Assembly: GCA_014871385.1 (NCBI GenBank)
Contig: CM026429.1
Coordinates: forward strand, 9,763,640-9,827,639
DNA from: Ceratodon purpureus
Taxonomy: Eukaryota; Streptophyta; Bryopsida; Pseudoditrichales; Ditrichaceae
DNA: 64,000 bases
Direction of reading: 5' to 3'
The notes beneath the pieces are model-generated. The model was not told the DNA's origin and ran no database searches. It worked only from the letters and a program-made list of their open reading frames with translations. The translations under genes were made by a program, and so were the position numbers. Shown here piece by piece: positions 638 through 58,900 of the stretch (position 1 is the stretch's first letter; each line of letters begins with the position of its first letter).

Positions 638-3600
638 ACCACAAGCACTTGAAGGCAAACACTTAGGTGCTGATGTAGAACATTCCAGTATTCATTCAGA
701 ATAAATTGAAATATTCCTCGTTGAGTTTAATTCCCTTGAGGGTTCAATTGAGAAACTTTTGTTTCACCATGACTGCACACTGTAAAATTCTGTGCTGTAT
801 ACATGAACCCACTGCCACCAGAGTGAATGTCCAATAATTCTCCATATGATCCTGTGCACCTTCTTCATATGAACCTTATAAAGATAACGGAGCCATATTC
901 ATGTAAGGGATGATCAGATCACGCTAGAGAACTTATTCTTATGACCTTCCAAAAGAGTTGGAACTACACCCAATGAACATGAACAGTGTGAGACTTGTGT
1001 GTCCACCATGGAAGTCGTATTCACAAAACAATATAAGATCTCATTGAGAATGTTTGGATTGTATCACAACATATTTGCTATGGTAGTTGAGGCACGACCA
1101 CAGCATGGATAGCCGCCTCTGTAGTGTGTCATTCCAAACACAAAGTTTTCTAGTTTTAACACATCTTGGCCTGTCATTTGGATTTTAGCATTAGGTAAAT
1201 TTACAATAATACTCTTTCATATTCTCGCCAGCCTCAAAATAGCTGCAGTAGTTCTAACAGTCCTTAGGTGAATGTAGTCTGGTAACTACAAACCTCCGGA
1301 GTCCGTAGCTTTGTGAGAAGTTTACATTAAATATCAGGGCAAGCCATGATTCTAACTGGATAAGTTCCATTCATGAATAGTGTTATTCCATTCATGAAAA
1401 AGACCACTGCCTTTTTGTCCTTCATTCCTCTCACGATGGATTAGAATTTTACAGTCCATCATCCATGACTTTTACTCTGTTCGTTACACCCACTTGGCTT
1501 GCATTTGGGGAGGCAAATAAGGTTAAGTCATCATCCTCAGATTCAATCTATTTTTACATCATATTAATGCCGTACAATAATATTGACAATACACTCCTCA
1601 GAAAACAGAATGCTATTCAACATGTGATCAAAAGAAACATGGATTGCTGATCCTAGCAGAGGTCCTCCCCCCGCACAGTAGCTTCCTGCTGCTTTGTTTC
1701 TTTCTCTGCAGCTTGCGCTTCTCAACCGAGTGCAAGTACTCTTCTGAAGTGTGGTTACGGTTATGTTGCTTTCACTTTCTCGTATACTTTCTTGTAGACT
1801 TCTCTTATTATTTCGACTCACCCGGATGGGGTCTCAAGGTGTTGATCCAAAATCATTATATTATGATGGTGTGTTTGACTCATTTTGTTTTAAAAAATGA
1901 GACAAACATGTTTTGATTTGCAAAAATAGTTTTGATTTGAAGTTATATATTACTCAAGGCAAAACGTGTATTGATTGGTTATGGCTCTATTCAGCACTCT
2001 TTGGTGCTCGGAACGGGAACAGAATAGTCTGGCATTGTCATACGCCTCCTCTGGGTAGCTTCATCAATTAAAATTGCACACCTCGACTTTGTCTCTGGTT
2101 CTCCGCGATGTTTTGTTTCCTTCTTCGGAATGAAATTTTTAATTGTTTTTAAAAATTCAAAAAAAGGATGAAATAGAACTTCATTGAAAGCTTCAAGCAG
2201 ATGGCAGAGCGGATATGACTGAAGCAATAGCTTGCTTCGTGCATGTCACTGCATGCACAGCGACATTGGCTTTCCTGAGTGGTTTCTTCGCCATTTTGAA
2301 AAGCCACCTGAAACCATAGTACAGAGAAAAGATGTTCCTGGGAAGGACTCTGATGAGACTCTTGATCGCATCACAGGTTATCAGTCTACTGTTCTTCAGC
2401 TGTGTGGAAGGACACTGGAAAATAGTTACCGTAAACTGTGATAATTGTCCAATAAATTCCCAGAAATCTAGTAAATTGAGGAATATTTTTCATAATAGTT
2501 TAAATTAGAAGTGTGCAAGTGTGTGAGGGGAAAAGTATGTACTTGTGAGTCCGTCTGGCTACTACCATATGAGCAGAGCCATCTGGATTTGCCGGAGTCA
2601 CATGCATACTTGATGCTGGAAGGAAGTACACAACCCAAGAAGGTACAGACTTGACTACCTAAGGAAGTCCAGGTATTTGTTGACAATCAGTATACCTATC
2701 AGTTATTAACCTATTTGGTTGTCTTCTAACTGTGCCGTTGCTGTTTAGATAATTAGGTTAACCGTAAACTCTGAACCACAGTCAACATTAGCATTCATCA
2801 CTAGGGGCATGTCAAGCTCTCGTACTGACCAGATTTTTTCCATAGAATTTTTTTGTATCAAACAAAGTACTTGTGTGTCTAAAATTACGGAGGTGAATAA
2901 GCTTTGCTACGCAAGTGAATTCTTTGCAACAATAACAAAAATAAAATAAATGTTATTTCTAAGGTATTACTACAACTAGATATTATGCATTAGGTGAGTT
3001 TTGAAGCCTCCGAAGGGCCATCTAATAGTGCAATTATATCTTGACTCTTCTGGAATGGGCACTTGAGGGCAGTTGCTGAGACCGTGCTTAATTTAGAATA
3101 GAAAAATAAGTCAGAAACTTATTGTGCGGCTTCATTCTGCATCTTGGCCTAGAAGTACTAACGTGGTCGACTCTTGGCCAAGTTGGTACTGGCATGTAGG
3201 TCCAAATTAGTGAGCTCAAACTTGTCGCCTTCATGAGGCCTCACATCTCACCCAATGGTAATCCATTAAGATTAGAGTGACCATTCAAGATATTTTTGGT
3301 TGCTGCAATTTGAACGAACTTCATTGTAGAATGAAAAGAATGATTGTCATCGAATATTCATTGAGGGCAAAAAGTAATCAAACAAAAGAGAGAGAGAGAA
3401 CACTAGTTACATCCAGTTGGGGATAATTCCACATGGCGGGATGCAGATCTACTTAATACTAAGATCAGTTTGGTATTCTATAATATTCCTAACTATCTAC
3501 TTAGAGTCAAAAGCTTTTGATAAGTCTTAGACAATATCTTCAACTTTTGTCTTTGAGATGGCTTTGAGGGTCTTCTTTCAGGCAATGCCACCATAGTCAA

Positions 3601-5544
3601 GAAAGGAGTTCTAGATAAATTGTCTACTCTGTCTAATTAGGTGCAATTTGTTTACAATTGCCGAAAATCATTTGTTATTTTAAAATAGACAGCATATCGA
3701 GACTAATTTCTAGTACATTTATAATCATTTTAATTTAAGTTAAAGCATACCACCTCAATATTGTCTTCATTTTGAAAAGAAATTGTTGCTTGGAGAAAGT
3801 TATGATGTTTCTTCCATCTCCAAAAAGATCTTTTAAAAACTTGAGTGGACAACTCAACCATAATCAAACATATCAAATTACAAATTATACAATTTTATTT
3901 TTATAATTATGAAATATTTTTCAAGTGAAATTTCTTAGAAATAAAATAAATAAAGGATTAAGTCATCTACTGAAAATTCATCTTTTAAATTGATTGTAAA
4001 GTTTACCCATCTAGTACTTTTTGGGACCAAAGTTCATCAAAGATAGTAAAGTCACAAATTATAATATAATTTTTATCTAATATGACTTGAACAATGAGGG
4101 ATTCATATTTTTCCAAACATATGATAACAATGATATAACATACTTCAATGGTCATTAGTATAACATTGGCGCTTAGGATGTTGAACACAAACAAGTTTCT
4201 ATAATATACTGTAAATTGACATTCCATAAACACTATATGTAAGGGTATCTATGCGTTGGCTAAATAGTTACTGCTTCCAAATAATTTATATTATAATAAA
4301 AGCATAAAATTCAAATTTATTTCTAATTTTGTTCACAAAATTTCTATGAGTAATGCAAAAAATATATGAATGTTTATTTATCTAAAAAAAGACTTTAAGT
4401 TAAATAAATATTGGGTTCAAATATTATATATTCTAATGAAATAAAAAATCTAATAAATTGTATTAAATTTTTGTGATGTGCTGATGTAGATTTGCATTGA
4501 CTACATTAAATTTAAGATCCAAAATTACATTCAAAACCTAATAAAAAATTAATGGTTTATGAATCTTCAAAAGTATCATGAACAAACAGAGGACATGAAT
4601 GACTTTTAAACTTTTAGTTGTATATATTTATATCTTGAATAAGAGGAAATAATATTTAAATTTTGTTTTATATTATGTTTCATGTAAAGTTGATTTATGG
4701 ATGAACAAACACAATTATAGTTTTTATATAGATTATATTAACAATTGAGAATTGCACTAAGACCCTTAGTACTCCATTTCAAAGATTAATTTATAACATA
4801 TTTTAAGAGGGCTCCATCTGGTTTCTTCTATTTAAGTAATTGACGAAAGAAGAAGAAATCCAATCCAAGTGTCTTACCAAAACAAAATAACTTTGGTACT
4901 TTAAGGGTTTTTTTTGTATATTGTTTGACAATTTTCAATTATTCCTTTGGTCCCATTTTAAACAATCTATGTAAAACTATTCTACGTTTTATATTTTTTA
5001 TGAAATATAAAATTTAAATTTAAAATTGATATGATTCTAAAAAACTTTAAAATTTTGAAAATGATATATATTTTTGAGAATATTTTTATAAATTTTACAT
5101 TTTAAGATACATTTGTGTTTTTTTTTTTTTTTTTTTTTTTTTTTTTCATTAATCATTGAATATATTAATTTCAAAAGTATAAAAAATAAGTAAAAATATT
5201 TAAATTTTATAATTCTATTATATTTGTAAATTTCTTCAAAGTTGGGACTACTTTGATAATCCAAAAACACCTTTATAGAGTGGATGTATATTATTATTAT
5301 TTTTTTTATTTTTTTTTAATTTGATGACTTTGTAATGGCTTATACAAATCATTATATATCGAGGCAAAATGCGCCAATGATTTGAGGTCAATAGGCCAAT
5401 GCATAACTTGGTTTTAATCCAAAATACCAAAAATAAAAAATCTTTTGTAACATGTGTCATACAATAATTTAAAGTGTTTTTAGGGGGATAATTGTTTTTG
5501 TTTTTGAAGATATGTATCCTCTAAGATTGGAGAGATTGCTCCAT
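638..5544. other. AT-rich intergenic stretch without a recognisable gene
   Basis: No convincing coding region. At 2,210-2,480 two overlapping plus frames stay open for 60-80 codons, one hydrophobic, but neither resembles a known family and no start or splice context is convincing. A 29-base poly-T tract lies at 5,118-5,146. From about 3.7 kb on the sequence becomes very AT-rich, typical of old repeat decay. Confidence 0.5.
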
Positions 5545-10308: not shown

Positions 10309-10409
10309 GTAGGTTCATAGCCGGTCTGGCACTTGATAGCCGAATAATTAACCCCTAAACTCCCAGGCAACCAAAATGTGGTCGCCGGCTATTATGAACA
10401 GGTTCCTAC
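10309..10409. repeat. Imperfect inverted repeat spanning the left end of a TTAA element
   Basis: GTAGGTTCATAGCCGG at 10,309-10,324 pairs with the segment at 10,385-10,409, which carries small insertions. The hairpin straddles the TTAA junction at 10,348-10,351, so one arm is flank and the other is element. Confidence 0.5.
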
Positions 10410-11272
10410 AGTGTCAAAAATAAATTTCAAGTTTTGAGATTTTGATTGTGGATTCTCTAGGTCATTACCTACATACCAAGCTTTGTTTCATAAGATTTGG
10501 TTATGTAATGCAAAAGTTATGAATGGTTGAAGGTAAAAAATCTCAACGCGATCAGCCACAAAAAATTCAAATATATTTTTTAAAAATAATAAAAAAATCA
10601 TCATTTTGTAGAGATTCATATTCAAATAGAATGCTTTGATTCAGTCCATTCCAACAAGTGAGGTAAAAGATATGACAAGTCATGTTATGTGGGCAATTTT
10701 GGTCAAGTCTTCAATAAAAAAACTTTAATAGCTCATTTTGAATACAATTTTGACAATTTTTCTAAAATAAAAATTGGAAAAGGTTTTTGTTATGTATCAC
10801 ATCATTTTTACCGTTGAAAGTAACGATATCCACTTTTATGTGGGCGTAATTAGCAATTTATTTTTTCCTTGTATTCTACATTGTATTTAGATTTACATAT
10901 CTTTTGAAGATGAAAATCTAGGTTTTTTCTTTTGATATTTTTTGTGTAGATTCTCAAGTCATTTTAAAATTTGAATATGGAGTTGCCCATTTCAAACTTG
11001 TAAAGCATATTTTTTGAAAATTCATTGAAAGTGAGATTTCAGCTTTTTGAAGGATTGAAAAGAAATCGTTTTTTAACTTTGAACATTATGATCTTGCAAT
11101 TGGTGTTGTATTTTTTACTAAAATTTTGGAAAAGAATGTCTTAATAAGTTAGCTATAAGATCCTACGGTTGAAATTGCAAAAAAATGTCATAAAATTGGA
11201 AAAACTAACTTCCATCACAAAGGAGTGTTGAAGGGCAGTTTTTGATGTGAGTTCATTGTGGGCATTTAGGGG
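10352..11272. mobile_element. TTAA-flanked non-autonomous piggyBac-like element
   Basis: 921 bp between TTAA at 10,348-10,351 and 11,273-11,276. Left terminus CCCCTAAACTCCCA and reverse-complemented right terminus CCCCTAAATGCCCA agree at 12 of 14 bases. No coding capacity. The block near 11,080-11,180 (a CATTATGATCTTGCAATT-like word, then GATCCTACGGTTGAAATTG) recurs at the same distance from one end in the other TTAA elements. A diverged relative lies at 39.4-40.3 kb. TTAA target and C-rich ends are established features of piggyBac superfamily elements. Confidence 0.75.
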
Positions 11273-11276
11273 TTAA

Positions 11277-12452: not shown

Positions 12453-12894
12453 TTTGAATGATAACCGAACATCAAAAATTGAGTTTTCGTGAGTCAACAA
12501 ACCTTTGACCATTCATAAATCTATGCATTTTATTGGATTTTATTTGGATTTTTTCATTGTATGTAAAATACAATTCTCCATCTCTTGTATCCATACTTTG
12601 GAGCTGTAAGAAAATGTGAATACTTTTTCAATTGGAGTAAATTTAACATCTTTGAGTTTGTTTTGGTATAGTCTACGAAAATCCAAAAGATAAAAATCTC
12701 AAAAATTTCAGAAAATGGAATAGGAAATTTTGGAAGAAAATGAACAAATATATAATCAAATAAAGAAAACCTTTTGAACGCTTTGGACGTTTAAGGGTTA
12801 AGGCCTAATCTCTTTCACAAGTCACTCTCAGACCCCTCCAGGTTGCATGCCTGAGAGATGATTTTTTGATTACCAGTTTGATCCTTGGCCTTAA

Positions 12895-13753
12895 CCCCTA
12901 AAGTTCTGAGGGTATTTTTCATCAAAACTGCCTCAAAACAGCCCCTCTTCAAAGCAAGGTGGATTTCGCAAACTTGGGGTTTTTTTAGTACATCTAACCG
13001 TAAGATCTTGTAGCTTACTTCTACATCTACATGTCCACCAAATCTCACACACTCATTCTTCACCAATTGCAAGATCATAACGTTCAAAGTAGAAAAACAA
13101 GTTTTTTTTCCCTGCAAAAAAATGGGACAGCAGAGTTTTGAAGGCCCATTAAACCATTTTTTTGCATTATGGATTTTGGGGGTTTTGATGCACGTCAAAG
13201 AAGACTGAGTTTTCTAATTGCATTTAGAAAATTATATCCAAAAAGTTGTGGAAAGTTGCCAAATAAATCATTTTCCGCTAGGGGGTATGCTGAAATTTAC
13301 AAACAAAGGCCGTTTTTGGACAATAAAAATAGCATATGAAAAAAAATTGGATTAAAAATCCGGACGGTGGGAACATGCTCTACTGCCTCCTCTATACATA
13401 GAAAATTTTATTTTTGAAAAATATCAAAATCTCAATTTTTGGTGGAATTTTAAAGTTTCGTCTTTGGGCAGATTTTGGCAGTTTTGGGCAGATTTTGGCA
13501 GTTTTGGGCAGATTTTGCTGCATTCACAGTGGCTTAGAAAAATTCAGCAGCTGCCCAACGAGCAGCGTTTGACACTTAAACCTTCATAACTTTTGATCCC
13601 AACGTAGGAATTGAAAAATAAAAATACCCACACGAAGATCTCCGAACGGCCCACCTTCAATAAAAATTTCCGAAAATCCTGATATAAATTGCATTCATAG
13701 GTACATGCCCAAATTCCAAAAAAGCCCAAATGTGGCAGATTGTCCTTTAGGGG
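12895..13753. mobile_element. TTAA-flanked non-autonomous piggyBac-like element, inverted relative to its relatives
   Basis: 859 bp between TTAA at 12,891-12,894 and 13,754-13,757. The ends are CCCCTAAAG and CTTTAGGGG. GGCC lies just outside both TTAA copies, so the pre-insertion site was probably a GGCCTTAAGGCC palindrome. The conserved subterminal block appears reverse-complemented near the left end (about 12,998-13,095). Between 13,476 and 13,520 there is a 20-bp tandem repeat of GGGCAGATTTTGGCAGTTTT. A minus frame of 127 codons (12,815-13,198) straddles the left boundary and has no family match. Confidence 0.75.
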
Positions 13754-13913
13754 TTAAGGCCTAGAATTCTACGACAGGAGAAAGCCAACCGAATAGCATA
13801 AAACAGGTATGGTATACAACATCCAACTGCTATTAATGCCCCAATGATCCTACACATGCAGGCAGAGAAGGTAACTGATGTACCATTGCCACCGTTGGAG
13901 TGAAATTTTGGCT

Positions 13914-22187: not shown

Positions 22188-22699
22188 TAAACAAGAGTAT
22201 CTGCTTCAAAAGCCCCCTTGGCTAAATCCCATCTACTAAGGTTGAGGGCTCAAAACCCTCAAACTTCATATTGTGTAAGGTAGCCGCAGCTAGAAACCGC
22301 CACTTTAGGACCAAAATAATAATAAAGTTGGTGTAGAAAAAAACATATACATAGGAATATGGAACCAAATTTATTTATTTTCTGAAGGTTATTTTAGACA
22401 CTACTGGAAACGGTGCATGGCCATCAATAGACCACCAATAAATGTCTTTTTATACTAAAAATTTATATCTTTAAGTGGAATTGGGCATTTCTTAATGGTC
22501 TTTTTTTGGTGACATAAGAGTTATTTCCACTAGTAATTGGAATTACTAAGAATTTTTGAAGGTCTAGAAAATAGATTTTTAGTAAGAACCAAAACTAGGA
22601 GGCTACCAAAAAATAAAAAAATTTAAAGAGTAAGTGGACATCTAACACAACCATGAATCATAATAGAAGTAGTGTCTTCATATATTTGTGTCTATTTAA

Positions 22700-23629
22700 C
22701 CCCTAAAGGTTTTGGAAATCCAAAATGGCTCTCAGCTGTTTCGGGCAGCCTAGATGAAGGGGTTAAAAGTAATATTTTTGCCTAAGAATTTTACTGGATG
22801 CTCCTTATACCGCAAAGTGTATGTGGTAAAATTTTCAAAACCAAATTTCACTTTTAGAAGCTTCATCTAGAAATTTTAGGTTTCAAGTCCAAAACGGGCA
22901 GTTTAAAATTAGGTTTTTTTAGAATTGTTTTTTTGGAAATGTGTTCATAACCAATTCACTACTCAAAATCCAAAGTGGCCTAAGTCAAAAAGCTTACCAA
23001 TTTTACAAGGGCAGCCTCCAAAAAACACAGAAACAACCTTCATAGTTTTTGGTAATTTTACAATTTTTACTTTCAAAATTTGTCAAAATTTGAGATTTAG
23101 GAATTTTTCAATTCTATTTTTTTTCGATAATTAAAAAACTCATGGAAGTAACTTTTGACCGTTTACTTTTTTAAAAAACCAAAAACATTTGACGTCATTT
23201 AAGTTTTACCATATTGTGGTTTTTGTACCTTCTTCTCGAAAATAACTTGCATGAAGGCCAAAAAAGTATAATGAGACTCTAAAATTTTGCATGGAGGTGC
23301 CCAACTTAGTTACCTACGTGGAAAAAAATATGAGCAAAATGTTTGAGGTAACAATAATCAAGTCTCCCTTGGCACCATTTAGAGTATGTCTTTTGCGCAA
23401 AGCCAAAAAAAAAAAAACGGTAAACTTTGAACGTTATAATCTCACAAATGGTAAAGATCCAACGGTTGAAATTTGACATGGTATTAGTTCAGGTAGCAAG
23501 GTTTAAGATCTTACGGTTGGATGTATCAAAAAGGTAAAAAATTAAGGATCATACTGCAACTTCTACAAGGTTGTCAAAAATCACAGTTTTTGGTTTTGGA
23601 GGCCCAAAAACGGCTTGAACCTTTAGGGG
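22700..23629. mobile_element. TTAA-flanked non-autonomous piggyBac-like element with perfect 12-bp ends
   Basis: 930 bp between TTAA at 22,696-22,699 and 23,630-23,633. Left terminus CCCCTAAAGGTT and the reverse complement of the right terminus are identical over 12 bases, the best-preserved ends among the small TTAA elements here. The conserved subterminal block lies at about 23,425-23,525 (GAACGTTATAATCTCACAAA, GATCCAACGGTTGAAATT, AGATCTTACGGTTGG). No coding capacity beyond short chance frames. Confidence 0.8.
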
Positions 23630-23633
23630 TTAA

Positions 23634-47010: not shown

Positions 47011-48318
47011 GGCTGCTTTACACTACGTTGGAGAAGTTCACCGTTCATGAATTCTAGGGGAATGGAGCAATGTGATTGGCTAGAAATGAGATTCTTGTCC
47101 AAGATTTACACTATGGCTAAGACTCCTCTAATGGAAAACTTTAAGCATGGATGGAAGAATGACATGGTTGCCAAGATGGAAACACTTTTTGTAAAAAGAG
47201 TTCACCATATGTGAGTTTTTTGGATAACCTCAAAGCTATGGAGAAGAAACTTGGTGTTTCAAAAATTTCAATTTCTTTAGAATAATGTACCTCTAATTTT
47301 CTTATTTTTGGTTTTTCTCATGTGTTGACCTTCTTTATTCCAAGTTATTTATAAGACCCTTGAAACAATTTTTGGATTTTCTAACTCCTTTTTCTATAGT
47401 GACTACTATAATTTCCTTTCATATGTTTTTATTCCTTCTTTAACCCCTCAAGGCCCATGACCAATTTTTGAGTCAAGACGTTTGAGCACGGGTCTTCACT
47501 GTTCATTGTGTATCCAGCGATTTAGGAAGGCTCTTCGGAATTCACCGTTGAAATGGCTTCGGCACTCATTGAGGAACCTAGAAACTAAATTTGGAGAGAT
47601 TTCACCGTCCAGATTGAAAACTTATAACATCTAAACTTTGGCAAGTACAGTCCCAGAACTCCACGACATGGAGCACCCGTGGTTTCAATCCCGAAAATGA
47701 GGTAGTGGTTGGTGTCAGGTGGACACAAAAATTAGAGGAAGAGAAGATGCCAAAGTCCTGAGTATGTATGGAAATTTTCAGACCAATTGGAGAATCGCTA
47801 AACAAATGACTGTCCACCGAGTTCGAAGTAGTATGGCAAATTCAGGAACCTGGCTGGTGGATAAGACCTACACGGATCAGGATGTACAGGTCGCACCAAC
47901 GGGCGTAGGAGGTTGACGTCGGGTACCAACCGCTCGACCCGACTAGAACTAACCGCTCTTCTTGAGTCCTGATCCTGGGACATGCACTCGGACAACATTC
48001 TGAGAAGGTGGCTTCGACTCAATTTCTAATTTCACTTGTAACTAGTCTGCAAGATTTGTCAGTAAGAACCCTCTCCTCTCTCATGCAGCTCTGAGCGGTC
48101 ACCTCAATTGAGTGCCAACTATAATTTCACGAGAGAGGATTCAGCAAAAAGGGTTGAGAGGTGTTCCACAACAGAAAAAGCACATGAGGACATACAGGTT
48201 GCAGTAATTCGGCGGCACTCTTCAAATTACATGATTCCAGTGACACAACGTTTGAGATCAACGCAGACAACACAAGCACTGCACGGTGAAAGTAAAAGTA
48301 CTCGACACTATACCAAAA

Positions 48319-48378
48319 CCAAACAAAACTTCTATCGACAGGCCTACGAAAACAAACAAAACTTCTATCGATAGGCCG
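48319..48378. repeat. Short tandem duplication
   Basis: CAAACAAAACTTCTATCGA followed by AGGCC occurs twice, about 35 bases apart, with one base difference. Confidence 0.7.
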
Positions 48379-48904
48379 CACATTCCAATATTCTTCGGCT
48401 CCTTCCTGTCAATCCAGGCTCGACCATGTCTTCAGCATCCACTCTACAGTCCTTCAAACAATGCAACTGATTAGGATCAATGAGCTAGCCGCATTGCCCA
48501 TTGACGTGAGCTGTCAACTTTTGCAAAACAGGGCTCGTCACATAACCAAATAGGTTCGCCAGGTGGGCCACAAGCACGGCAAACTCGCCGTTGCTTCTTC
48601 TTGCACTGTTTGCAGCGCCGAGGCCACTTAGATGTTGAGTGAACGATATGGTGGAGCTCAGTGCTGCGAGCATTGTACCGAGAGCATGTTGTCGTGATGT
48701 AAATACATATACCATGTAAAAACATCGAGAGATCAACCTTGAAGTCCTAATTCAAAAATTAGATGGAGATAGAAAAGGGTGGGGTCTTGGAGAGATCCAC
48801 GGTCTTGGTTTGTACTGCATCATGTCACTTAGCTCAGGGAAATAGGGTGGCTGGTTGGTTGCTTATTTCCTGCTATCACTAGCGGTGCCAAATTGCAGCT
48901 GCTC

Positions 48905-49005
48905 CGACCGAATCAACGGATCCGACGGGATTCGAACCCGGAATCGGCTGGCAGCTTTCTAGGGACTCTGACAACCAACCAAGTCTACAACTTGGCGACA
49001 GATAT
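48905..49005 (-). repeat. tRNA-derived SINE head (or degenerate tRNA)
   Basis: On the minus strand a perfect pol III B box (GGTTCGAATCC, near 48,915-48,930) lies about 45 bases after an A-box-like TTGGTTGTCAGAG. The T-arm folds, but no matching acceptor stem is visible 72 bases upstream, so a functional tRNA is unlikely and a SINE head is preferred. Confidence 0.4.
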
Positions 49006-49300
49006 TAGTCCCGGAGTGGTTTTATACCACTGTTGGTTAACCGTTTGGCTTTCGACTGACGGAACAGTACTCCTAGGTCTATTCTTTCTCACCTAGGTTA
49101 TCTTTTGATAAATAAAAAGATGCCTTTGGCTGCTAGTGTTTGTTTTACTATAAAGATAACCATTATGATTTTATTGGAGTGTTAAAAGTGGAAGCAAGCT
49201 TCTCAAGGAAGCTACTAGGTTTAGAATAAAAATAACCAGGTAGCTTTGCTTCTCTTAGTTCACTCTGAGTAGTTTGGGTTTGGATTCAGTGTTTGTGGTG

Positions 49301-49714
49301 ATGGAATCACAAGATCCTGACGATTGGCAGTTGCCCTTATCTCAATTACCGGTTGATCCAAGTCAACCATCTTCTTCAAGGCGGCGTTTGTGAGATGAGG
49401 CGGGGCCTTCTGAGCGTTGTGTGCAACCACGAACAGAGCCAGGTATCTCGCAGTTTACACTTCCAGCCTTGCAATTGGATAACAGGGCTTTGGTTATCGT
49501 TTTGGAATCTGAGCCTACGCTTTCCGGGAACTATCAAATGGTGTTTGAGGGGTGCTTTGAGAACAAAAATGAAGGTCAAATAGTGAGCCGCAGTTCTAGT
49601 GAAGTTGGCCATCGATTTTGGCTTCAAGGGCAGCTCAATCTCCTGACCAGGGAACGGAGGGCAAGCTTCATCGCTGCGGTTATTTTGCGTATTTTGGAGT
49701 TTTTGAGTGTTTGA
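49301..49714 (+). pseudogene. Orphan ORF inside the piggyBac-like element, one in-frame stop
   Basis: 138 codons from ATG at 49,301 to the stop at 49,712-49,714, interrupted only by TGA at 49,391-49,393 (codon 31). The N-terminal part is polar (WQLPLSQLPVDPSQPSSSRR). The rest looks like a folded domain with alternating hydrophobic residues (ALQLDNRALVIVLESEP, GHRFWLQGQLNLLTRERR) and ends in a hydrophobic helix (SFIAAVILRILEFLSV). I do not recognise the family. It runs opposite to the transposase and lies in its 3' flank. It could be an accessory protein of the element, a captured gene fragment, or chance. Confidence 0.45.
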
Positions 49715-50284
49715 AGTAGATGCTTCCTTTTGTTGGGATTTTAGTGCTGATTTTGGCTTGTTTTTAGCCTTAGTTTTGAGTTTTATTTCCACCAATTGAT
49801 TTTATTTGGAGTTGGATGAAAGCTAGTTGCTTTCTTTACTTCTATCTAGTTGACTTTGAGGTTTGTGGACCCAAAGATGACTTAGATTGGTGGTAAGATA
49901 AAAATGGGGGGAGCCTATGGGTGGAAAGATGCCCTCATGGGCGAGGCATGGGCTGAGGTGGCCGGGTTTGGAAGGTTATGGGGGGGGAATCCTCCTCTCT
50001 CCTTGTCGTTGTTTTAGTTTTGTGAGGTGTGCTGGAGTGAAGAGAGCCGAGACTTGAATCGGACTCTGTGTATTGTGTAAGTGGAATTTGAACACAAAAA
50101 CTGGTGGAGTTAAAGATAATGAGTATACGCTTCTTTTGGCGTTGATTTCACTTGATTTGGAGCCTTTATGAGTGTTTTGTGAGCGTTTGAGTGAGGAGTG
50201 GTCTGCTGTTCCCCAAAACGAGGAACAGAGATTTTGTACCTCTCCTACAGTCGCAACTCTTGTTGAAGCAAAGTGAAATTCAGA

Positions 50285-50715
50285 GGGAGTGAAGTACTTG
50301 TTGTTAGCTTTCCATAGAAATAACACACTTGTAGATAGCATTTGTAAATCTTGAGTTATGAGCAAATAAGTAGAGTAGTACACACTGCTGCTCAAGATTT
50401 TTTATAGGAAAGTTTGAGTGCTCATATCTTATGGACGGTAGCTTTGTTTCAAATGAAAATTTGATGCAGAATAGCAAACTGTCTTAGCTTTCTATAAAGC
50501 TTTTACACTTGCAGAGAGCATTCGTGAATCTTGAGTTATGAGCAAATAAGTTGAGCAGTATACACTGCCGCTCAAGATTTTATAGTAAAGTTTGAAGGCT
50601 CATATCTTATAGACAGTAGCTGTGTTTCAAATGAAAATTTGATACATTGTAGCAAACTGTCTTAGCTTTCAGTAGAGCTATCACTTATCCAAAGTGGAGC
50701 TCTAGAACGTTTTTG
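50285..50715. repeat. Tandem repeat of about 181 bp, 2.3 copies
   Basis: CTTGAGTTATGAGCAAATAAG occurs at about 50,349 and 50,530, followed each time by CACTGC.GCTCAAGATTTT, AAAGTTTGA, CTCATATCTTAT and CAAATGAAAATTTGAT. A partial third unit (TAGCAAACTGTCTTAGCTTTC) ends the array. Non-coding, inside the 8.2-kb element. Confidence 0.85.
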
Positions 50716-50892
50716 GTGACTGTTTTAGTACTGCTGGTCCAGAAGAGGTCCGAATTGAAGAATTGAAGATTTTGAAGACTTGAAGAATTGAAGAGTCAAG
50801 TGAAGATTTACATTGCGAGGACCTATCCTATGTTGTGGGCATGTAGCTTTGTTATTCTTAGCCTGATTTGGAGGCTCGTTGTGAATTTTGTA

Positions 50893-51013
50893 TTGTAAAC
50901 TTTGTTGCGGGTTTGGCCTGAGGTAACAATCAGCCTTACCTCATTTTGTGTTGTCATTTTTGGCTTTGTAAACCTTGTTGCGGGTTTGGCCTGAGGTAAC
51001 AATCAGCCTTACC
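50893..51013. repeat. Direct repeat of about 46 bp
   Basis: The word TTGTTGCGGGTTTGGCCTGA, continuing into GGTAACAATCAGCCTTACC, occurs twice about 71 bases apart with few differences. Confidence 0.85.
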
Positions 51014-51404
51014 CCATTGATTGTCGTGGGCAACGAAGTGGGGTTAATGGCCCACATGGTTGAATCTTATATCGTTCTCACAGTGAGACTGGGTTGATGA
51101 CCAGTAGACTGTGAATTTGAAAGTTTAGGATCCATATTCACGGACGGTTCAGCTCGTGGTCTGCCGTCCGTTCTACCCGTCCCGTATCCCGTGGTTTCTT
51201 ATCCCTTCCTTGACCCTTGAGCCCCTAGAGCCACAACAGGATAGGCCAACGGGGAGCTGATTGAAGATTCAAGAACTGAAGGGACATTGATCAAGAATCC
51301 TTCCTCCCTAAGTCAATTTCAGCTGCAGCCAGAATCCCTGTGATTTCCCAAAGCAAACCCCTCTCTTCTCGACAACGTGCGTGGTAATGGGAAGAAAGGC
51401 TGAA

Positions 51405-54400
51405 TTAGCTCCATCCGACAGTAAAGTGGAACGCCTTCCGTCCGCGTAGCCTCTCGTTCCGTGCTTCCTGATCGTCCTTATAAAGACGCCATGCATTCTA
51501 AAGCGAGCTGTCGAAGACGAAGAACCAGAGCTTATGCCACCACTTTCGTGTCCAAAACTAACATGTGTAGTCCCTTCGCATCTGGTCAACTACGTCGATA
51601 CCTCGCATGTTCCGCTCATACTCAACCTGCTGCGGACTTGTCGCTTGGGCGGTGCGAACCCCATTCGACCACCGTTGAGCGAAGGCAGCGTCATCGTGGC
51701 ACGGGTTCACCGACGTACTGAGGAAGGTCACAGGCTTGGAATCAAACCAAGTACATGTTGACATTCTTCGACTTGAATGCATTGCCCAAAACAATGTGTT
51801 TCGGAGATGTTCACCTCGGCGAAACCCCGTCAAGCTGGACGGCATACCCACTCTCTTCCCTTTCACAGTCCCAGTGGCGTATATGCCTCGGCCCAACAAT
51901 GACTCAAACAAAGATGGAGATGTGAAGAAGTTATCTACGACTACTATGTGCCCCTTATGTGACATCCCACGTACCAATTGCGAAACAACTCGCTCACCTT
52001 GGCCCACCTCTATAACGCCGTTCTTTCCCAAGTACGGTATCAAGTTGTGAATGTAACGGGATGGGTTGCTAACGAGGGCCCAGACCTTTATGCCGTAACG
52101 GGTAGGTTTCTTCGGCATATACTGCCGAATCGGGCTGAAGTGGCCTCTGTATGCAATCATAATCTCGTCACAGGTAACCAGGTGCTCTGGATTCCATAGT
52201 TGTCGGCTTCATTGCATAAATCCATCCAGAATGGACCGCACCTTCCCAATCTTGTCATACTCGTCCTCTCCTTTCTTTGCAAGGCTTTCGTTGTCCACGC
52301 AGTGGAGGCAGCAAAGAATGCACTCGAACCTGTCTCGAGACATGATCTTCGCAATCACAGGACAATGCCAGAACGAGCCCTCCTTCCAGTAGTCTCGGAT
52401 TGTAGGTGTCTGCTTCAGGGCCATCAGAATCACAATGCCGCACCAAGCCCTGAACTCAACCGCCGTCAGAGGTATCCATCTCGATCCTCCATTGCGATAC
52501 TGTGACTCATACTCTATCATCGCCTGTGCCGCATACAGGTGTGTCTGGCAAACCATTTGGTTCACAACCTCCTCGTCCCAAAAAAGACAGAAGAAGTAAC
52601 TGGCCTTCTTCTTGTTCCGTGTAAATCTCTGCGTCGGCCCTGGATGAGGACCCCGGAACCTGTTCCGATCCCCTAACATGTGAGTGGCTTCCTGTCCCTA
52701 ATGAGCATCTGAATACCGCTCCCTGATTCCTTCAACGCCAACTGGAGTCTCTGTGTCTGCCTCTGTAAAGCGTTGGTATTCTTCGAAGTGAAATGATCCA
52801 CCAGACTCACTCAACCTATCAGACCTATCGTCAAATAAGTCCCAATCAGAGTTCTCATCGTTAGAATCATTACCTGCAAAGTCCATGTAGTCCCCCAACC
52901 AAGAATGGTCATCAGAATCTGATGAAGGGGAGTCGTCTCCATGTAGGGCGATATCAACTGTGTCCTCATTTTCTACACTCGATGCTGGAGGATCCGCCCA
53001 AGCATCCCTTGGAATAGATCCATCGGAGGATTCAGAGGCAGTATCATGTCTTCCATTTGCCTCCTGGTTTTGTTGTCCCTCTATACTTTCATATTTTGTT
53101 CCACATTCTGGATCATGAACCTGCTGCCTCCATCGACCTTGGCTTGCAATAGCTGGGTCTCGCCAGTCTCGAGTTGAGCAATGAAGGCAATTGACAATGT
53201 GCCAACCTATGCCTCCACCAAAATCAACACCAAAAAGATGACTCTCTTCTTCCCAATAGGCCTGCTGCACCTCTCCCACGAAGTGTTCAATTCCTCCATA
53301 CTCTTCTGGAGCATACCCCAGCACTTCCAACCGTACCCACACCTCCGCTGGGTAGGATCTTCCATCGGCTCTGTTTGGCCCTCCTGGAATGCACCGGATC
53401 AGCCTTGCAGCGTTGGCCCCTGCTCCTTGTGTAGTGCCGTGGCTCGCCTGCTCCATGGAACTCTGAACCTGATCAGTACTATTCATGTGATCACGCTGAG
53501 GAACACGGCTTGTACTTCCACCGTGTGGAAGGTCAACACCACTCGCCAATTCCGTGACCGCATCCAGCCAAGCCTCCGTTCGCCCGGACATTGCAAACTG
53601 CGATTCTAAATTCAGAGCAATTGCTGGACGTCCACGTCCTACGCGGTCGACTGCGCCTCCATGTGGTAAGTCCATACCAGTCCTCTGTCGCCTTGTCGCA
53701 TGCACATCAATACTCCCGGGACTATGGATCGGTGGTGAATGCAATCCATGACGCACCTGAGCTCTCCGCAATTGAGGTGGCGTCCGACTATTCGGCACAA
53801 TTGGAGGCGGTACCCAGCCCAACGGGGCTACAAGACATGTGGCCCGACCCCTTCCTCGCCCTCTGCCTCTCCCCCCTGAAACTGCGACACCATGATTCAC
53901 ATCAGTTGGAAGTCGACCTCGTCCCCTTCCTCGCCCTTTGCCTCTGCCTCGCCCCCTCATTGCATCGACATCAATGTTCGTATCATCTGAGTGACCTGCT
54001 CGACCCCTTCCTCGTCCTCTTCCTCTGCCTCACCCCCTTGTTGCATCGACATCAATATTCACATCATCTGGAAGGCCTGCTTGACCCCTTCCTCGTCCTC
54101 TGCCTCCTCCTCTTCCACGACCCCCTTCCGCTCCTTCATCTCTCTGTTGCTCGCCAATAATGTTATTCGCATCTGCCGCTTCATGTTCTCCATGTTGCAC
54201 ATCGCTCGTCATGCTAATACCTCCACTCCATGCACCCCTCCAGCAAGCACCCCTAACACATCCATCCCGAGCTCTCCCACGATTGGATGCAGTGCCTTGC
54301 GGTCTTCCACCCCTCCCCCGCCCCCGTCCCACACCCTGCACGGGCAATTCCTCGGGTTCATGAGGAAGGGGATCTGAAACCCCCCCTCCCGATTCTCCAC

Positions 54401-54956
54401 CTCCACTGCCGGCAGATTCAGCAATTCGGGTGACTGCGCCACAAGCAATTGTCCGTCTTCGGGCAGCTCTACGTTGTGGAATTCTGTGCCGCTTCGCAAT
54501 TCGTCCCTCACCAATTCCGAGATTGCCTCCATCCCGAGCGATGCTTCCTCCATCTGGCTCTGTGCTTGCACTTCCGATGGCATCAGCACTTCCTCTGGTT
54601 GCGCAATGTGAATGTTGGTCCTCCAGCACGGGCCATTGTTGTTCACGCAAGAATTTGTTCACCTCGTCAGGTATGCCGTCCGGATGCCCTTTAGGAAGCC
54701 GTTCCTTCCATCCAAGTAAGCGTCCAACCTGCCTTCGAAAAAGATATCTCCAATTCTGAGTAGCAAGGTCCTTCGGCCAAGTATGATTTATCTCTGGTGC
54801 CGGCAAACTCAACAGGAAAGACTCATTAAGGCAATTCACAACCTGTTGGGCCACTGCTGGTCCCTTTCCCTTGCCGAGAGCCCAGTGATAGAGGCAATCC
54901 ATCGCCTTGTAAACTTCCTCTTGAGTCGCCCGCCCCTTGTTCAACGCAGTTGTCAT
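51405..54956 (-). pseudogene. piggyBac-type transposase (DDE_Tnp_1_7) with long N-terminal extension, five in-frame stops
   Basis: One frame of 1,184 codons from ATG at 54,956 (an in-frame TAA lies just upstream) to TAA at 51,405-51,407, broken by TGA 54,030, TAG 52,698, TGA 52,209, TAG 51,558 and TAG 51,498 (lower coordinates). Residues about 200-420 include RG-rich tandem units, and about 640-750 are acidic (DDSPSSDSDDHSW). The catalytic domain runs from about residue 785. Aspartates stand in TCDEIMIAYRG (930), VVVDNFFTS (1,008) and RGIDVVDQM (1,121 and 1,124). The first two are 78 residues apart, the same spacing as D268 and D346 of the moth enzyme. RKWWHKLWFFVFDSS follows, as in the family. 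No C-terminal cysteine-rich domain is visible. The TAG at 52,698 could instead be a genuine boundary, since ATG follows at 52,679. Role: cut-and-paste transposition at TTAA. Confidence 0.85.
53915..54110 (-). repeat. 84-bp in-frame tandem repeat coding RG-rich units
   Basis: The words GACCCCTTCCTCGTCCTC and TTGCATCGACATCAAT recur about every 84 bases (28 codons). The encoded units read GRGRGRGRG then a D-rich NIDVDA stretch. At least three units are recognisable, and further RG runs without the spacer flank them. Confidence 0.8.
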
Positions 54957-55660
54957 AGTCGCAGCTCCGACTTAGGTAACGCAGGACAGAAATTGCACGA
55001 AGCGCTCAAATGCAATCACAGCTCAGAGTAGAGGCGGCTCACTATCTCTAACACAACGGATTCGTGCAGCCAAGGCGGCCCTCTCCACTCACAAAAATCA
55101 TCAATTGTACTAAACCTCACTTCCCTAGACCTGATTCCCCTCCCGAAAATCTCAACGGCTCCGTAAACCCTAAGCGGTGATGTCCGCAAGACACTCCCTC
55201 TGCAGTAGCCATGTCCAGATAATCCTGAGGAATTCGTTCAAAACTACTGCGCATCCACGTCCGCGTCCCCTCAACCCACTCCAACACTCGCACGACGCAG
55301 TCTTCCTTGACACTGAATGAGTGCAAACGAACTACGGACTCGAGGAGGACGAGAGAGCTTGCCTTCCTTGCAACGGATCCGAGGTCCCTCCCACGCTCAA
55401 CGGCTTATGACCGGCTCGTTCTAGTCACAATTCAGCCCCGCCGTACCAACTGCCTCGTCCCGACTTTCAGAACTTGAGCAAATTTCGGCCATTGTTTACA
55501 ATTCCCTTCTGTGCCGAGCCGCACAAGTACCCCATTGCAACCCTACGATCTGATTTTACGGCTTCTGAGACTTACAGGCCATAGCGTTTGAGATCCGGGC
55601 TGGAAAACCGAACTTTACAATCCAGAGGGGCGCAATTTGAGCCCCTTGGGCGTTGAGGGG
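54957..55660 (-). other. 5' flank of the transposase within the element
   Basis: About 700 bp between the transposase ATG and the element terminus, GC-moderate, presumably promoter and 5' UTR. A minus frame at 55,117-55,326 is open but has no recognisable features. A TATA element cannot be assigned with confidence. Confidence 0.4.
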
Positions 55661-55910
55661 TTAAACATTGTTTTCAAAAAAAATCTAAAATTTTCTAAGC
55701 TATCGTTGTTATTCTCTAGTATGAATTATCCAAATGACTTCTCTTCTTAACAATTACACTATGAACAGTCAAACAATCTTGAGATATTTTTACAATATTT
55801 TTTCCACTTATTTAGCATTTGCCATCATTACCCTCAAATAGCCATGCATTTTGACAGAAGTTTTTTTACCTATTGGTGCACTTCTTCACCACCCTAGTGT
55901 AAAACGGCCC

Positions 55911-58900
55911 TTATAATGACTTTAGAACTTTAGACAACCGTTTTAAAACATACATTGTAAATACAGACAATTTTTGACAATTTGTTTATTGAGAAAATGA
56001 TATTTCGCAGTGTTTGGTTGGTAGTCATGTTAACTTAAACCGAGAGTCCGAGTAAAAAAAGCGAGGACACACTCTGCACCATTTCTAACCCTAATCTGTG
56101 AGAGCTCTCTACTTTTCTCGGAGCTCTCTCTGAATCACAGGGTAGTCAAATTCTTTTGACCTCGGAAAATAGAAACACTGAGGTAACCTCGGCATTGAGC
56201 GCGGATGGGCTCGCAAACTACTGGTTTAAACGCTGAAGTGGGTCTTGCAAATCGGAGCACCAGATTCCAAACAGTGTTCGTCAGTATCATTGAGGCACAC
56301 AAAAAAAAATCTTCTCCAAAAAAAATCTTCTCCAAAAAAAATCTTCTCCAAAAAAAATCTTCTCCAAAAAAAATCTTCTCCAAAAAAAATCTTCTCCTTC
56401 GACACTGCGTCCAATTTGATAGTCTGAATTTGTGAGTGAGTTCTGCAGTCTCTGTACCATGAAAATGTAAATCTTATTTCATACAGAAGCGTATGTCAGT
56501 TTGAGGCATTGAGGTGGTAAGCAAATCATTTGTGGAGGGAGTGGCTGGACACAGTAGCAGGCTCACTCAAACGTATGTTCATTTTCTACAGCGTCAACTT
56601 GACTGTGTTGTCATCATTTTATTTTCGGATGTTATGTGCTCGTGTAATCTACACAGATTTCCATTACAGTTGAAATGTGTACCACCGCCTGGGACCCTTG
56701 AGTGGTTGTGTCAAATTAATGACATTTCTGTACAAACAGAAATCTTCGTTGGAGTAGTGATAACGGCAACCCAACCTGCGTCGAAACATGTTATCAATTT
56801 CAAGAATCTTACAAATATTGAAGTGATTACCTTCAGATTTGTAACTGTCTTGATCATGGCCTGTCATGTGCAATATTGTCCTCTTCAACAAGAGCCATTA
56901 CTCTTCAAAAGAATGTACCGATTTCACAGTCAGAGACTACTCTGTAAATGAGTAGTACAAAATTGTGTATAAGTAAATGTATAAATCATACAACAGTCTA
57001 TCGGAACTACATCAGAGTCAATAGCACACCAACTGGAGAAATACAAGTCAGGAGAGGGAAAGAAATTAGATTTTAACTGGAAATGGCACAAGAGAGCCTG
57101 AGGCCATGGCCGGGAATTCTACACGGGGCACATTCTAATCAAAATCACTTCTTCTATAGCAGGTTTTAAGTGCTTGTCAACAAGTTCTGCGAATCAGCAA
57201 GCGTTTTCTTTAATTTGTTAAAATTTTCTAAGGTAAATTTCGACTAACACCCACGCTAAAAGGCGATTAATTGCTAATGAATCTAAATGCTCGATACAAG
57301 ATATGCAATAAAATATTAGAATGATAGTTGAATTTATACAAAATACTGTGAATAAGTGGAAAGAACATGTTGGAGCTCTTGACCATGAGTAAATGAATGC
57401 TCGTGAGCGCACTGATGCCATAGGTGGTGGTCCGTTTAAATCGAAGGTGAGCATATCCACCATACCTGCTAACACACATTGTCCTGGAGTCGGCAATTGA
57501 ACAGTAATGAGGAAGAGGGCCAGAGGCTGAGATACACATGGTCAGCACGTTGGGGAGATGATTCCATCGACCCCGCAATGGAGACCAATGCCACTGAGGA
57601 GCTGCGTCTAGCAAAGCCAACTTATGTGCAGCAAGTACAGCGACGTTTGTGTGTCATTCTTCGCACTGGTTCGGTAAAAATGGCTTTCAGATACTTCATG
57701 CTAGAACAGTGGTGGTCCTCTTTTCTATAATATCAGTGAAACCGTTGCACAGTTTTTATCTTTGAAATGTTTCTGAAACAGACCTGCAGCACCCATTTGT
57801 GCTGTGTGTAAAACTGGCCTGTACCCTGCCAGGAGTATGTACAAGTAGTTGTGAAATCCGTATGGTGATCTTCATCGGCATGATTTTTTTGGCCTTACAA
57901 GAAACCCCTCTAGGAAGCGGGCCATATATAATATACCACACAAGAAAAATATCACTAGATGTTTTTGTTGAATATTGTTATTGAAACTTCATCTATCACT
58001 GTAGATCAAAGTCCATGTGATGCACTCACCAGCAATTGGAACAGACATGGAATGTACGCCTATTCAAATTCACCGGTTCCACTTGTTACGAGTGTTGATC
58101 CAGCATCCCACTGATGTCAGTCACTGAAGTTGAATTAACATACCAGCGGCTTCACGACTCATGTAATGCAATCATAACACCATTTTTCAAAGATTCGTTA
58201 ACTATGACCACTGAGGCGATTAAAAGTCTCTCTTGTTGTGTGCAACTCTGTTACATCTGCAACCTTCAACTGAAATTCTTGCTGGTCTTAATTCCGCTCA
58301 TTGCCAGACCAACATCATTAATTTCCCTCCTCCTGCCGAGAGAATAGCTCGACAGTTGCAATCCAACACCTTTGTAAATGGCGAACAATGCCATGGAAGT
58401 CACAACACAGACGAAATACTCCAAGCCTGCCAAGGTACCACAAAGGCGAGATAACAATCCAGTACTCTTTGTTGCCAGACGAATACGATCCCATCCACCA
58501 AAACTTGGTCGATGATCTAGACATGTAAAATATGCGCATCCCACCCCTTCCCAAAATCAACCTGCATGATGGTCGAGACGAGATGGTCCGAGCCGAGATC
58601 GTGCAGGGCCGCGGCGGTCGCTGAGTGCATGGAGCCGGCACGTGAGGCGCTGCGTGGAGCTGGCCGTGGACGCCAAGCCAAAGACGTCGGCTATTGGCAG
58701 GGGATGTGGCATGCGTGTGTGCATCGCCGACGGCCCCATGCTCCTAGCGTGCCGCTGGTGGCTACGGAGTCCTTGCACCCCGACTGCAAAGCATCCTGCA
58801 TGCGGCATGCCCACGCGCTGCTCCTCCGGAGATGCCCCCCTCTCGAGTCACCAGTTCCGGAACCAGATTATCATGTTGACTATACTGTCACTCGATGATT

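Follow-up and report, generated by a model that had tools for sequence, protein, structure and literature searches.

Is the 8.2-kb unit enclosed by TTAA in this part of the genome of the moss Ceratodon purpureus a complete piggyBac-like transposon of a plant? The piggyBac transposons are best known from animals (insects) and fungi, and the first-pass annotation of this DNA had proposed a notable plant lineage, represented by a complete element of that size that carries a second ORF on the opposite strand. We examined the window, by which we mean the whole stretch of 64,000 nt analysed here, together with the genome from which it comes. The plant host and the superfamily were borne out, but the 8.2-kb size, the completeness and the second gene were not. 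With a probability of roughly 95 %, positions 47444-55660 hold a moss DNA transposon of the piggyBac superfamily, once autonomous and now dead, that was native at about 5.5 kb and later the target of an LTR insertion.

Ends and target sites

The boundaries of the unit were defined by the following features.

47440..47443, no strand: TTAA target site, left copy (the joined flanks match paralogous sites that are continuous across this point)
47444..47457, plus strand: left terminal inverted repeat CCCCTCAAGGCCCA, 14 bp
55626..55646, no strand: palindrome AGGGGC-N9-GCCCCT, directly inside the right end (sequence read and stem analysis)
55647..55660, minus strand: right terminal inverted repeat, CCCCTCAACGCCCA in the minus-strand reading, 14 bp
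55661..55664, no strand: TTAA target site, right copy (sequence read and joined-flank matches)

The interior from TTAA to TTAA measures 8,217 bp, and the coordinates given by the first-pass annotation proved correct, as did its description of 14-bp ends that differ at one base (CCCCTCAAGGCCCA against CCCCTCAACGCCCA). A repeat search returned the element ends as an inverted pair of 19 nt, 95 % complementary, at a spacing of 8,189 nt. The 18-base end pattern TTAACCCCTCAANGCCCA, with up to two mismatches allowed, was found at 2,804 sites (1404+1400) in the 362.5-Mb genome, compared with 45 sites (21+24) for the reversed pattern, and the bare end core CCCCTMAANGCCCA at 380 genome sites against seven for its reversed form. 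Contig C1 has 47 exact CCCCTMAANGCCCA cores, and a by-eye comparison of two site lists placed TTAA immediately outside 44 of them; eight of the 47 come from one region (C1:7.05-7.12 Mb) that is partly a tandem array, and are not independent.

When the two flanks were joined, they matched a diverged repeat elsewhere in the genome, with 27 matches beyond their own two places. Six of these crossed the junction (query 300-303) without an element-sized gap at 66-70 % identity, namely C9:6367561, C9:16298160, C8:10728280, C9:11654048, C2:20343582 and C12:12126437, and these appear to be diverged paralogous empty sites. No second copy close to the window element is available within its own family, so the evidence for its boundaries comes from relatives and from these diverged sites. 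The excess of end-pattern sites over the control, combined with flanks matching six uninterrupted paralogous sites, identifies the ends of 47444-55660 as real transposon ends.

Among 26 end clusters (46 distinct ends, taken from the window and the loci examined), 12 had a perfect stem of at least 5 bp just inside the terminus; 1,000 base shuffles that preserve base composition, not dinucleotides, gave 2.9 clusters on average and never more than 9. The left end of the window element has a stem of 4 bp only. Just to the right of the element, at window positions 56302-56397, the 16-bp unit AAAAAAAATCTTCTCC is repeated six times without a mismatch.

Transposase gene

The coding features all lie on the minus strand.

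51375..54956, minus strand: transposase frame, from an ATG at 54956 down to the LTR, with six in-frame stops
53918..54106, minus strand: Arg/Gly-rich coding repeat (period 81 bp) within the N-terminal half of that frame
51558..52697, minus strand: DDE_Tnp_1_7 domain (Pfam match and alignment)
48525..48614, minus strand: C-terminal Cys-rich domain, separated from the rest by the LTR (frame read by eye)

The DDE_Tnp_1_7 match was split in two pieces (Pfam E 2.5e-25 and 9.1e-35), the second of which aligned with T. ni piggyBac (6x67) at E 7.1e-15. In that alignment the motifs VTCDE, VVDNF and GIDVVDQ place their Asp residues, which we take to be catalytic, opposite Asp residues of 6x67. All four Asp codons of the domain are present (52167-52169, 51933-51935, 51594-51596 and 51585-51587), in agreement with the earlier report of a minus-strand DDE_Tnp_1_7 frame with its full set of catalytic aspartates. 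That report was also right that the frame contains stops, but it counted five, and there are six before the LTR (54030, 52698, 52209, 51558, 51498 and 51405).

We built a profile from five sequences, four from other families in the genome and one from the window, in which the four Asp columns are invariant. Among 177,635 PDB sequences it matched two at E <=1, both piggyBac-type transposases: T. ni piggyBac (IFP2, 6x67; E 5.4e-46), with all four Asp positions aligned, and piggyBat of Myotis lucifugus (9c0f; E 2.6e-45). The T. ni element targets TTAA and has ends starting CCC with a palindromic motif nearby, piggyBat uses the same TTAA target, and short inverted ends starting CCC or CCY are general in the superfamily. 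Identity to these animal proteins is about 30 % over 196 residues for 6x67 and 23 % over 193 residues for 9c0f. Compared with the 594 aa of the T. ni chain, many relatives in the moss have open frames near 1,000 aa with a long N-terminal region, which in the window copy is Arg/Gly-rich. The land-plant host is a further difference from the T. ni element. With TTAA on both sides, short inverted ends of the type just described (14 bp, one mismatch) and a DDE_Tnp_1_7 transposase with conserved Asp residues, the window element can be assigned to the piggyBac superfamily by the criteria tested.

The Cys-rich domain of the window gave a zf-Tnp_2 match at E 0.016 and 16.1 bits, against a Pfam curated cut-off of 24; the corresponding match in locus L004 (E 1.1e-4) was likewise below the cut-off, and L006 gave none. 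A DDE domain followed by a Cys-rich domain was the order in those relatives where both could be read. By reckoning, taking away the LTR and one target copy does not bring the Cys-rich domain of the window copy into the same reading frame as the DDE domain. An Rfam scan of the window returned no matches.

A nested solo LTR and the native size of the element

Part of the unit proved to be a separate insertion, which splits the transposase gene after the DDE domain and ahead of the C-terminal Cys-rich domain.

48686..48689, no strand: target-site copy left of the LTR, ATGT, sharing three of four bases with the right copy
48690..51374, plus strand: solo LTR of a Ty3/gypsy-type retrotransposon, 2,685 bp, TG...CA
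51375..51378, no strand: target-site copy right of the LTR, ACGT

A genome search with the whole element returned 53 non-self matches, every one inside query 1241-3952 and none touching the piggyBac parts (40 of 129 candidates scored). Many LTR matches were paired about 9 kb apart, and one full-length element with two LTRs spans 11,663 bp. We compared 29 LTR loci (L040-L068) and read the target copies in eight cases (five pairs and three single LTRs), where the copies were identical at 4/4 bp. A primer-binding-like sequence, TTTGGTGCTTCCACT, follows the 5' LTR, and the frame before the 3' LTR of L051 matched Integrase_H2C2 above the cut-off (E 2.6e-21) and rve below it (E 3.1e-6). An integrase just before the 3' LTR is the gypsy order. 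Positions 48690-51374 are thus a solo LTR on the evidence of the TG...CA termini, the paired matches, the short target duplication (three of four bases in the window copy) and full-length copies with two LTRs and an integrase ahead of the 3' LTR. The termini, the target duplication and the integrase position resemble Ty3/gypsy elements, against which we also set the long LTR (2.7 kb) and the 4-bp length of the duplication. The target copies read in this family were CCGT, GCGT and TCGT twice each, ACGG and ACGA, so that CG occupied positions 2-3 in eight of eight cases, a possible target preference of the family.

The 8.2-kb length of the unit is explained by this nested LTR. Subtracting the LTR and one target copy leaves 5,528 bp, and four relatives, each with a pair of exact ends facing one another, measure 4.6-5.4 kb (C11:6903067-6907626, C13:10682711-10687832, C6:35021320-35026455 and C3:9390523-9395904). 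The native element was about 5.5 kb. The window copy is dead, because it carries six in-frame stops and the LTR, and the first-pass reading of a complete 8.2-kb element therefore fails, 2,685 bp of it being foreign.

We regard it as very improbable that the whole 8.2 kb is one native element with an extra plus-strand gene. Both ends and both TTAA sites do enclose the full unit, and plus-strand frames of 106-200 aa are present within it. However, the longest of these frames (123-200 aa, stop to stop) are antisense to the transposase frame, the longest inside the LTR has 106 aa (49394-49714), and none of six such frames (one in the LTR, five antisense) had a Pfam match. The second ORF reported previously is not supported, and the plus-strand frames that may have been read as such belong to these two kinds. 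The segment 48690-51374, moreover, has many matches of its own elsewhere, arranged in LTR-type pairs (scores cover 40 of 129 candidates), and begins and ends as TG...CA between near-matching 4-bp flanks; the four relatives above are only 4.6-5.4 kb in length.

We return to a native element of about 5.5 kb. Beyond the ends, TTAA sites, domains, stops, LTR and paralogous empty sites, which are observed, we infer its biochemistry and order of decay as follows. The native element consisted of a single long transposase gene on the minus strand, encoding an N-terminal Arg/Gly-rich region, the DDE domain with its catalytic Asp residues and a C-terminal Cys-rich domain in that order, and of 14-bp inverted ends with TTAA outside them. 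Following the mechanism of insect piggyBac, the transposase would have bound the ends, excised the element at TTAA and moved it into another TTAA site. The Cys-rich domain perhaps bound the palindrome next to the right terminus, a role suggested because the Cys-rich domain of T. ni piggyBac binds a repeated motif at the ends (PMC8086355). A Ty3/gypsy-type retrotransposon of about 11.7 kb would later have landed in the transposase gene, separating its DDE and Cys-rich domains, and been reduced by recombination to a solo LTR, bringing the unit to 8.2 kb, and point changes would have added stops.

Relatives and families in the genome

The genome contains at least 116 DDE_Tnp_1_7 loci (116 scored among 999 candidates), many of them in open frames of 600-1,200 aa. 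By-eye counting found no stop in the matched stretch of 93 of the 116 scored loci. The first-pass annotation had proposed looking for copies that share both termini, aligning their boundaries and finding intact frames. Relatives with two facing exact ends exist, as listed above, and two of them (C3:9390523-9395904 and C13:10682711-10687832) hold a stop-free transposase match between those ends; the 93 loci supply open-frame relatives. As for boundaries, the alignments of L025/L026, L018/L035 and L027/L037 run from TTAA inward with at most two bases matching outside. For L025 and L026 the identity inside TTAA is 95.4 %, nothing matches beyond it, and because their match ends at TTAA this boundary type is confirmed in a relative.

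Three other pairs, L010/L011, L014/L036 and L021/L022, match beyond TTAA too and are duplications. L014 (C2) and L036 (C83, a contig of 40.6 kb) are identical over 3,018 bp, which is either a recent duplication or a redundant contig. L010 and L011 lie at C1:7061041-7076597, where end motifs recur at 3.88-3.89 kb intervals, and are 99.9 % identical over 3,018 bp, the outside of the element included; this region is a tandem array with a captured piggyBac-like end.

The piggyBac part to the right of the LTR gave 12 non-self matches, the best at 64-65 % DNA identity (C6:35024241, C3:9391802 and C10:706164), and the window element is the one recognised copy of its family among related families. We compared it with families of the same genome (L001-L003; L004, L005 and L007; L006; L008; L025 and L026) in a pairwise identity table of 11 window and genome rows and two animal fragments; L015, L019, L029 and L034, in which the motif was not found, stand outside the table. 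At least five lineages were distinguished, with mutual identity of 32-47 % in the DDE region. The window copy was closest to L025 (67 % over 156 residues) and L026 (57 % over 150), and it shares TTAA and similar ends with these families where the ends of the relatives were available. A search with L004 gave a best relative at 89 % identity and most at 72-85 % (40 of 312 candidates scored), and because the relatives are graded in this way the L004 family as such is not a recent burst.

Substitution rates were estimated for seven pairs, of which six were usable, L004/L008 giving no dS. The dN/dS ratio was 0.03 for L001/L003 and L002/L003, with dS near saturation, and 0.06-0.10 for the three pairs among L004, L005 and L007; L001/L002, at 0.40, showed weaker constraint than the others. 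Purifying selection of this kind suggests that the transposases were functional while spreading, or were kept for some other reason. A domesticated, PGBD-like host gene lying between chance TTAA repeats would suit the strong constraint in five of six usable related pairs (0.03-0.10), and piggyBac genes have been domesticated repeatedly. For the sequence at 47444-55660 we nonetheless consider it highly unlikely, as the gene here is broken by six stops and an LTR, its ends with TTAA are common to many loci, and the relatives L001, L002 and L003 have end-like motifs (three mismatches) near the gene. Animal or fungal contamination or an assembly artefact has a negligible chance of being correct: piggyBac is best known from those groups, but the element sits on a 17.6-Mb contig, within a repeat of the same genome, encloses an LTR repeated on many contigs of that genome and has transposase relatives on each of the 13 large contigs. 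The genome also gave 32 matches to the NAC domain, a plant gene family that had no match in 14 control genomes, and these genes mark the host as a land plant.

Non-autonomous passengers

The dead transposon is accompanied in the window by three short elements.

10348..11276: 929-bp TTAA-bounded element without long frames
12891..13757: 867-bp TTAA-bounded element without long frames
22696..23633: 938-bp TTAA-bounded element without long frames

We scored 39 further copies of each and compared them end to end (within a few bases). The 929-bp element had copies at 91-94 % identity (37/39 end to end; 1,441 first-look candidates), the 867-bp element at 92-95 % (38/39; 3,679) and the 938-bp element at 91-99 % (39/39; 2,434), first-look candidates being candidate copies. 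Two copies of the 938-bp element on other chromosomes reach 99 % identity. These elements represent three TTAA-bounded non-autonomous families of about 0.9 kb with thousands of candidate copies. The 929-bp element matches the end of the transposase-bearing locus L007 at 80 % identity over 670 bp, and L007 is a candidate driver of it.

A probable piggyBac system in a moss

What is unusual here is the host and the abundance, not membership of the superfamily. The available text of a 2022 review of land-plant transposable elements (PMC9033089) gives six plant TIR superfamilies and no piggyBac superfamily for the plant group concerned, and the word 'piggy' is absent from that text. In the accessible portions of two other sources, plants are named in passing among piggyBac hosts (PMC8086355, PMC10813416), and the published repeat tables, as far as available, list 1,230 PiggyBac entries for a fern, amounting to 122 kb, and a single one of 75 bp for a grass. 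A literature search joining piggyBac and Ceratodon returned only 'piggybacking', and the repeat table of the main Ceratodon genome paper may list elements; for piggyBac and mosses, no title on endogenous moss elements was among the matches listed. Viral contigs searched with the transposase profile gave 38 pattern matches, none of which was confirmed, and thus no outside lineage there.

The window element is an ordinary dead copy, and what gives the finding its value is the larger group of relatives elsewhere in the genome. We lean, with some reserve, towards a moss with a recently, perhaps still, active piggyBac system, in which several deep transposase families mobilise thousands of TTAA-bounded passengers of about 0.9 kb. 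In this reading, selection inside the genome has maintained the open frames of these transposases, whose families are deeply separated. A chromosome-scale plant genome in which no fewer than 116 transposase loci stand beside thousands of candidate passengers would add a further superfamily to the plant repertoire in earnest. The genome-wide set would also raise the question of old inheritance versus horizontal arrival, and would make a TTAA-specific system available that is native to a lineage in genetic use.

The distribution of these elements among chromosomes was uneven. C6 (110.5 Mb, 30.5 % of the genome) carried 19 of the 116 scored transposase loci against 35 expected (binomial p 0.0008), a deficit that, like the passenger counts below, is drawn from the best-scoring copies among those listed and may reflect age, not number. 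C6 is probably a sex chromosome; in the part of the source available, C. purpureus is described as having a 360 Mb genome with U/V sex chromosomes of more than 100 Mb each (PMC8000587). Among the 39 scored copies of each passenger, C6 held four of the 929-bp, five of the 867-bp and one of the 938-bp element.
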